From NCBI RefSeq assembly GCF_009557055.1, contig NZ_CP045649.1, forward strand, positions 1,773,501 through 1,837,500: a DNA stretch of 64,000 bases, read 5' to 3'. The position numbers and the translations under genes are program-made. The notes beneath the pieces were generated by a model. It did not search any database and was not told the DNA's origin. It saw only the letters and a program-made list of their open reading frames with translations. The stretch comes from Nocardioides sp. dk884 (GTDB lineage Bacteria > Actinomycetota > Actinomycetes > Propionibacteriales > Nocardioidaceae). Positions 62,187 to 63,767 of this stretch are shown in pieces. Positions within the stretch are counted from its first letter, which is position 1, and every line of letters begins with the position of its first letter.

Positions 62187-63225
62187 CATGACGCACACCG
62201 TCGCCGTTGCCGGAGCCAGCGGGTACGCCGGGGGAGAGATCCTACGACTCCTCCTCGCGCACCCGCAGGTCGAGATCGGAGCCCTCACGGCCGGCTCCAA
62301 CGCCGGGGAGCTGCTGGGATCGCTCCAGCCGCACCTCGTGCCGCTGGCCGACCGGGTGCTCCAGCCGACCGAGGTCGACGTGCTCGCCGGGCACGACGTG
62401 GTCTTCCTCGGACTGCCCCACGGGCAGTCCGGTGCGATCGCCGCCGCGCTGGCCGAGCGCAGCCCCGCCACCGTCGTCATCGACTGCGGCGCCGACTTCC
62501 GCCTCCGCGACGCGGGGGAGTGGGAGCGCTTCTACGGCGGCGAGCACGCCGGCACCTGGCCCTACGGCCTCCCGGAGCTCCCGGGCCAGCGCGAGCAGCT
62601 GGCCGCGGCGACCCGGATCGCGGTGCCCGGCTGCTACCCCACGATCTCCACGCTGACCCTCGCGCCCGCCGTGGCCGCCGGGCTGGTCGTCCCCGACGTC
62701 GTGGTCGTCGCGGCGTCCGGCACGAGCGGCGCGGGCAAGGCCGCCAAGACCCACCTCCTCGGCAGCGAGGTGATGGGCAACGCCAGCGCGTACGGCGTGG
62801 GCGGCACCCACCGCCACACACCCGAGATCACCCAGAACCTCTCCCAGCTCACCGACGCCTCCGTGCGCGTCAGCTTCACCCCGATGCTGGTCCCGATGTC
62901 GCGCGGCATCCTGGCCACCTGCTCGGCGCCGCTGGCCGCAGGTGTCAGCGCCGTCGACGTACGCGAGGCCTACGACAAGGCGTACGCCGGCGAGGCGTTC
63001 GTGCACCTGCTGCCCGAGGGCCAGTGGCCCCAGACCCAGTCCGTGCTGGGCTCGAACGCGGTCCACCTCCAGGTGGCCGTCGACGAGACCGCCGGCCGGG
63101 TGGTCGCGGTCGGCGCGATCGACAACCTCGCGAAGGGCACCGGCGGCGCCGCCGTCCAGTGCATGAACCTCGCGCTCGGCCTCGACGAGGGCCTGGGCCT
63201 GACCAGTGTGGGAGTAGCCCCGTGA
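62182..63225 (+). CDS. argC: N-acetyl-gamma-glutamyl-phosphate reductase
   Basis: ArgC (347 aa from ATG 62182) reduces N-acetylglutamyl phosphate with NADPH in arginine synthesis. Motifs: [19 protein letters not shown] (nucleotide fold), [11 protein letters not shown], the catalytic Cys in [33 protein letters not shown] and [11 protein letters not shown]. Three ATG codons compete (62176, 62182, 62188); AGGGGA ends 10 bases before 62182, which decided the choice. Its stop overlaps the GTG of the next gene. Confidence 0.95.
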
Positions 63226-63767
63226 GTCCTGAAGACGCAGTCCAGCCCAACGACGCAGTCCAGCCCGAGAACCCCGTGACCGAGCAGCCGGAGAGCGGCG
63301 CGCAGGCCTCGCGGACCTTCTCCCTGGAGCAGTTCCCCGAGAAGCTCGCCGTCGTGCGGCTGCCTCCCGGCGCGGAGATCCCGGAGTGGACCGAGTCCTC
63401 CTCGATCCTCTCCATCACCGCGACCGCGCGCGAGACCTCGCTGGTGTGCGCCGGGCGCAACGTCCCGACCAAGACGGTCGCGGTGCGCGGGCTGACCGCG
63501 TTCGCCGTGCAGGGCACCCTCGACCCGACCCTCGTCGGCGTCCTGGTCGAGCTGCTGACCCCGCTGGCCGAGGCGGAGATCCCGGTCTTCACGCTCTCGA
63601 CCTACGAGACCGACTGGATCCTGATCCCTGCGACGGAGGCGGAGCGCGCCGCCGAGGCGTGGCGACGACGAGGGCACACCGTCGTCCTCGCCGTCCCCGT
63701 CAAGCCGAGCCGGACGAGCAAGCCCAAGCAGGCCTCGCCGTCCAGGAAGCAGAAGAAGAACAAGTGA
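63222..63767 (+). CDS. ACT-domain protein, CASTOR-like
   Basis: Protein of 181 aa. After an acidic/Pro-rich tail of about 38 residues it shows two linked ACT-like units: [20 protein letters not shown] with the following [15 protein letters not shown], then [20 protein letters not shown] and [20 protein letters not shown], and a Lys-rich C-terminal tail. The STYETDWIL strand is the hallmark of the ACT_7/CASTOR type, known in eukaryotes as an arginine sensor. It sits between argC and argJ with four-base overlaps on both sides (GTGA), so a regulatory role in arginine synthesis is an attractive inference. Confidence 0.82.

Follow-up and report, generated by a model that had tools for sequence, protein, structure and literature searches.

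The locus considered here raises the question of what a small protein built of two ACT units does between argC and argJ. The window, by which we mean the whole stretch of DNA that was analyzed, comprises 64,000 nucleotides of Nocardioides sp. dk884 (contig NZ_CP045649.1, positions 1,773,501 to 1,837,500 of the forward strand). From the letters alone, the initial annotation had placed an open reading frame for a two-unit ACT protein with the motif STYETDWIL between argC and argJ and had proposed that it might sense arginine. The reading frame was indeed found at this place with a GTGA overlap at either end, and its product consists of two Pfam units and carries the motif at residues 126-134. 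The features of the locus are as follows:

62188..63225, plus strand: argC, named by its sequence and operon context and not by a family search; the start is assumed to be the ATG of MTHTVAVAG, and a start further upstream is possible
63222..63225, plus strand: four-base overlap GTGA of argC and the ACT gene, the argC stop (63223-63225) lying on the GTG of the ACT gene
63222..63767, plus strand: gene of the stand-alone double-ACT protein, GTG start at 63222-63224, TGA stop at 63765-63767, 181 codons
63342..63470, plus strand: N-terminal unit, Pfam A9CJY8-like_N (residues 41-83, 39.1 bits, cut-off 27)
63486..63659, plus strand: C-terminal ACT unit, Pfam ACT_7 (residues 89-146, 54.4 bits, cut-off 27)
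63764..63767, plus strand: four-base overlap GTGA of the ACT gene and argJ, the argJ GTG start (63764-63766) lying on the TGA of the ACT gene
63764..64000, plus strand: 5' part of argJ with a GTG start; the gene runs past the window end and is complete in the genome

The stretch from 63222 to 63767 is a genuine gene and not a chance open reading frame, since dozens of genomes have homologues flanked by the same genes. Within its own genome it is the sole match to the ACT gene, the Pfam ArgJ model likewise has one match there, and the gene order is argC-ACT-argJ-argB-argD-argF-argR-argG-argH. A genome scan with the ACT protein returned two named relatives, both of them Nocardioides. RNA folding at the argC/ACT and ACT/argJ junctions did not exceed that of shuffled sequences, and scans of L002:3400-6600 in the own genome for promoter and terminator consensus sequences found none. 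The N-terminal stretch of the ACT protein (window 63222-63317) contains an 18-base near-repeat (63234/63252) and differs in length between relatives. Past the 3' end of the window a 16S-23S rRNA operon lies downstream of the arg cluster (L002:14498-18001), which may explain why in many draft genomes the distance from the arg cluster to a contig end is 8-9 kb. Upstream, on the minus strand, the window holds a 434-aa open reading frame at 58949-60253 that ends in CDTDHVVAHGAGG..RRHHRAK and resembles the 13E12/HNH endonuclease repeat family of actinobacteria.

ACT domains are known as amino-acid effector domains. Both Pfam models, ACT_7 and A9CJY8-like_N, scored above their gathering cut-offs within the one protein; no further Pfam family, and hence no catalytic domain, was found above cut-off, and NCBIfam gave no match at E 0.01. 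The protein thereby differs from ACT-containing allosteric enzymes such as aspartokinase, which have a catalytic domain. A relationship to the CASTOR proteins had been suggested for it, and the sequence searches bear this out. With the single sequence, phmmer returned Atu0741 (1zhv) at 6.3e-13, CASTOR2 at 9.4e-7 and CASTOR1 chains at 1.9e-5 to 6.3e-4. When solved structures were compared with a profile of 20 arg-operon ACT members, 1zhv scored best (E 8.7e-27) and the CASTOR1/2 chains gave 1.6e-15 to 1.6e-13; the matches to VC0802 (0.013) and to aspartokinases (0.017 and worse) were weak. The Atu0741/A9CJY8 family (PDB 1zhv; A9CJY8-like_N plus ACT_7) shares the same two-unit core along the whole length. 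Atu0741 was deposited as a hypothetical protein, and a Sinorhizobium homologue of this family adjoins hflK/hflC and not arg genes. The likeness to CASTOR1 and CASTOR2, the cytosolic arginine sensors for mTORC1 (PDB 5i2c, 5gs9, 9kpb), runs through the C-terminal unit, and the two CASTOR1 stretches aligned by the profile, 97-129 and 272-326, lie within ACT2 and ACT4. Judged by these alignments, the ACT protein has CASTOR rather than the classical ACT enzymes as its nearer relative in sequence. In architecture it is about half a CASTOR, with two ACT units in 181 residues instead of four per chain (ACT1-4 in the account of CASTOR1 given in PMC5020642). GATOR2 and mTORC1 do not occur in bacteria according to a passage in PMC5187391, where it is also stated that, to its authors' knowledge, no bacterial ACT protein has a dimeric assembly of the CASTOR1 type. 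AlphaFold2 models of the window protein from a three-sequence alignment were unusable (mean pLDDT 41.1 for the whole protein, 38.6 when trimmed), and a scan of viral contigs for further relatives suited to this alignment found none.

Whether such a protein has to do with arginine can be judged from its neighbours in other genomes. A single-sequence search gave matches in 22 of 58 relatives, 20 of which lie between argC and argJ (not so in G041 and G048), while 20 of the 37 genomes of the same genus gave no match. Searching 293 genomes of the order with a profile resulted in 76 matches in 75 genomes; this profile was made from arg-operon members alone, so that the order and phylum surveys favour that type and under-sample other relatives. 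Arg neighbours were assigned by BLAST against the Arg proteins of the own genome. Between argC and argJ we found 68 of the 76 matches; seven proved on checking to have no link to arg genes (G110, G260, G240, G226, G041, G048 and the second match of G261), and one (G096) was left unchecked. Among the order-level matches with E below 1e-20, 68 of 70 are arg-linked. Moreover, two genomes of the same class and another order carry the ACT gene at the same place (L058, L059). The coupling to argC is tight: in 77 of 78 argC-ACT-argJ loci the ACT gene begins within the end of argC, with exactly four shared bases (RTGA). Known duplicates and the frameshifted G023 were left out of this count, and the start closest to the end of argC was chosen each time, a rule that favours short distances. 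At the other end, ACT stop and argJ start overlap at 42 of the 78 loci. In the congener G023 (L021 and L027) the ACT gene is apparently broken over two reading frames between argC and argJ, which both match over almost their whole length.

A second, differently built arrangement was found in another class of the phylum. In a phylum-wide sample of 396 genomes a match was present in 46, and 25 of these are arg-linked, namely the own genome, the two genomes of the other order (L058/L059) and 22 of the family f21. Within f21, 22 of 26 matching genomes are arg-linked, two were checked and are not, and two were unchecked. Of the 46 genomes with a match, the 21 other than these 25 arg-linked ones comprise 17 that are not arg-linked within the fetched stretch and four (G411, G648, G399, G433) that were unchecked; at some phylum loci (L139, L152) the gene lies near a contig end and its neighbours are visible mostly on one side. 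Where the stretch is long enough, the f21 cluster reads argJ-argB-argD-argF divergent from argC-argR-(GNAT)-ACT-(GNAT)-argG, its ArgR having been confirmed by Pfam in L067. In L071 ACT-argG alone is visible at a contig edge, and in L164 the ACT gene is divided between two frames. Thus the co-localization with arg genes, which the initial annotation had named as a check, was found in two lineages and is stronger than the sequence of one locus alone could tell. In 8 of the 22 arg-linked f21 genomes a single stop-free frame covers both the ACT pair and a GNAT domain, five times with the GNAT first and three times with the ACT pair first:

GNAT-ACT frames: L127, L128, L132, L133, L135
ACT-GNAT frames: L129, L148, L160

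A separate GNAT gene adjoins the ACT gene in three further f21 genomes. Pfam confirmed both domains in the two fused frames tested (L061, L062). When four proteins were compared with models of N-acetylglutamate synthase (NAGS), the best scores reached 29.3 bits (cut-off 280) and 20 bits (cut-off 180), and by these models the f21 GNAT is a generic acetyltransferase. A tree was built from 69 chosen ACT rows, of which 23 are of the argC-ACT-argJ type, 20 belong to arg-linked f21 and 26 are others. The argC-ACT-argJ type formed one clade in it (SH-aLRT 97) and f21 fell elsewhere, itself not as one clade. Because the two types stand apart in this tree, of which the 128 columns resolve little, linkage to arg genes may have arisen twice.

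Most genomes with argJ nevertheless lack the ACT gene, since ArgJ was found in 289 of the 293 genomes of the order as against ACT matches in 75. In all 20 sampled congeners without the ACT gene argC is directly followed by argJ; 17 of these pairs share one or four bases, two have an argJ alignment that begins 11 bases further on, and one has a gap of 52 bases. At 20 further ACT-less loci across the order argC also lies directly upstream of argJ, with gaps of at most 168 bases. An ArgJ tree was made with 119 rows, 79 of them with and 40 without the ACT gene; presence and absence change 14 times on it compared with a mean of 33.4 after shuffling, and six of these changes are forced by well-supported branches. 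We read this as an old operon gene with many losses, although a count of changes cannot separate gain from loss. In three close pairs dN/dS of the ACT gene was 0.35-0.41 as against 0.09-0.12 for argC and 0.13-0.19 for argJ. The ACT gene is therefore constrained, but less so than its enzyme neighbours. This patchy occurrence, the clean absence from congeners and the weaker constraint are what one would expect of a hitch-hiking gene that has no role in arginine metabolism and is held by operon inheritance. We regard this explanation as quite improbable, as the overlap with argC is kept almost throughout and the second lineage has the ACT protein in a differently built arg cluster, with the acetyltransferase in frame in over a third of the genomes.

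If the protein is tied to arginine synthesis, its binding site might tell the ligand. CASTOR1 holds arginine through the side chains of S111 and D304 and through many main-chain contacts, as described in PMC5020642 and PMC5187391. The window protein resembles CASTOR1 in the S-T-Y/F-x-x-D stretch that holds D304, and the hydrophobic lid and helix-7 positions are similar. D131, which lies in STYETDWIL, was aligned to both D304 and D121 of CASTOR1. S111 corresponds in the sequence alignment to P121, so that the window protein differs from CASTOR1 in having Pro there; it also has Leu at the position of E277, as have 44 rows of the arg-linked group arg1. All alignment rows are distinct by aligned sequence and not by genome. 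Among the 79 arg1 rows, 48 have Ser at position 121 and 21 have Pro, 9 have another residue and one has a gap. The homologue of Nocardioides guangzhouensis (L004) is one with Ser at the place of S111. Asp is found at position 131 in 67 of the 78 arg1 rows with a residue there, and in f21 in 21 of 21 such rows. No CASTOR1 contact position separated arg-linked from non-linked proteins (79 arg1, 22 f21 and 35 other rows, with the arg-linked f21 row L071 counted among the last). Only three positions, namely 52 (Glu), 63 (Phe, but Leu in the window protein) and 93 (Ala), are common to both arg groups and rarer elsewhere, and all three lie outside the contact positions. Since no contact position separates the arg-linked proteins, the pocket gives no verdict on arginine, and its residues would neither prove nor exclude this ligand.

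The remaining 11 of the 78 rows, which have no Asp at position 131, bear on a different explanation, namely that the protein is a structural or assembly partner of ArgC/ArgJ, a scaffold or chaperone with no ligand now or ever, in which the ACT pair is a dimerization and docking module. These rows keep the N-terminal half with a segment such as ESSSxFSxTATxxETS..CAxRxVPxK and most of the AWRRxGH tail, and the tight coupling of argC and the ACT gene would suit co-assembly. Because the equivalent of D304 can be missing while the N-terminal half is kept, ligand binding based on this Asp seems not to be essential to the kept function; either ligand binding was abandoned in these proteins, or the main conserved function may be contact with a partner. 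Nevertheless, we consider a pure scaffold unlikely, because the Asp is kept in the large majority of arg-linked rows and in every f21 row with a residue there, and argC and argJ are present as usual in the sampled congeners that do without the ACT protein. In seven loci (L113, L114, L115, L116, L117, L120 and L107) we observed that the Asp of STFDTDW is missing and the loop is reshaped, with the N-terminal half kept.

Relatives at other loci widen the range of conceivable ligands. In one of them (L137:7314-10681) the ACT relative lies directly before genes that by eye resemble trpE-trpG-trpD, and the family may serve tryptophan synthesis there. Segregation genes and a chorismate-mutase-like gene, again named by eye, are found near the relative in L130. 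In Peptoclostridium (L189) proA lies beside it on the opposite strand, in Selenomonas (L188) a HisJ-family phosphatase is two genes away, and in Paraburkholderia (L214) it lies next to hutH of histidine catabolism and an amino-acid ABC transporter. On three Streptomyces plasmids (L191, L212, L213) the relative and a nonribosomal peptide synthetase gene overlap in divergent orientation, and a gene annotated gntD (enduracididine beta-hydroxylase) is nearby. Several of the neighbourhoods of the family are amino-acid loci and others are not recognizably so. With relatives next to trp-like genes, to proA and to a gene of histidine catabolism, the ligand may change from locus to locus, as would fit amino-acid sensors whose specificity goes with the genes around them, and arginine should not be assumed everywhere. 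Even within the arg operon the protein could sense another amino acid or metabolite, for instance glutamate, ornithine, lysine or a nitrogen signal, and couple arginine synthesis to it. Besides the varied loci (L137, L189, L214, L188), the lack of an arginine-specific signature at the pocket positions speaks for this possibility. We judge it to be rather improbable, given that most members in the two best-sampled lineages sit in arginine clusters and that CASTOR1, which binds arginine, scores among the best of the solved relatives.

Starting from what is established, namely the gene and its overlaps, its family, its place in the arg clusters of two lineages and the in-frame GNAT fusion in one of them, our tentative preference, held at a little under even confidence, is that the ACT protein is an amino-acid-sensing regulatory subunit of arginine synthesis that is co-translated with ArgC and ArgJ. 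Because of the CASTOR likeness and the arg neighbours, arginine is by analogy the most likely ligand, and ornithine or another amino acid of the pathway would be possible. The ACT pair would be made in step with ArgC and ArgJ. It would dimerize into a body with four ACT units, like one CASTOR chain, and would bind the pathway amino acid close to the loop that precedes STYETDW. Through contact with one of the pathway enzymes it would then tune arginine synthesis after translation. Since the ACT gene stands beside argJ and is fused to GNAT domains, an acetyl-transfer step is the leading candidate target, most plausibly ArgJ here and the fused or adjacent GNAT in the other lineage.

It speaks against this reading that ArgR and ArgB already provide arginine control in related bacteria. 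As outlined in PMC3827942, control of the pathway is in general exerted by arginine on ArgB and/or by ornithine on ArgJ, and ArgB of C. glutamicum is inhibited by arginine. The initial annotation had also named ArgB as a possible target. We compared ArgB from 39 loci with and 20 loci without the ACT gene and found no column with opposite dominant residues (above 75% on each side). As no ArgB column follows the presence or absence of the ACT gene, the alignment gives no indication that feedback on ArgB has been taken over by the ACT protein.

The fusions in f21 invite comparison with the N-acetylglutamate synthase of the ArgA type, which consists of a kinase-like domain and a GNAT domain according to PMC3827942. 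As in ArgA, a GNAT is fused to a second domain that putatively senses an amino acid, and the fusion is encoded in an arg cluster; unlike in ArgA, its partner is an ACT pair, and the GNAT matches no NAGS model at cut-off. A far-reaching reading would take all of this together: bacterial ACT pairs dimerize to a body of four ACT units, bind arginine between the subunits and act on acetyl-transfer steps, the fused GNAT of f21 is an unrecognized N-acetylglutamate synthase with an ACT pair in place of the kinase-like domain of ArgA, and the family serves again, with other ligands, next to trp, pro and his genes. As a joint claim this is doubtful. Two NAGS models found nothing above cut-off in the Nocardioides sp. 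dk884 genome. A frame of 334 aa (G000:C1:3238799-3239680) was matched by the CG3035 NAGS model in two pieces, 72.9 and 50.2 bits with a cut-off of 280; it may be the NAGS of this genome or an unrelated GNAT.

The domain family as such is known. Our search of the open-access literature gave no paper that deals with this gene or with ACT proteins encoded in arg operons, and the arg-operon setting was not found described there. The place of the ACT gene in the arg clusters of two distant actinobacterial groups suggests amino-acid sensing that tunes arginine production. If this is true, many actinobacteria would have an unrecognized control protein for arginine synthesis, and it would offer a handle on feedback in actinobacteria that produce amino acids. 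The arg-linked GNAT-ACT and ACT-GNAT fusions hint at a possible unrecognized regulated acetyltransferase. Moreover, a bacterial relative of CASTOR would be found in an arginine context, through which the origin of the animal arginine sensor would become testable.
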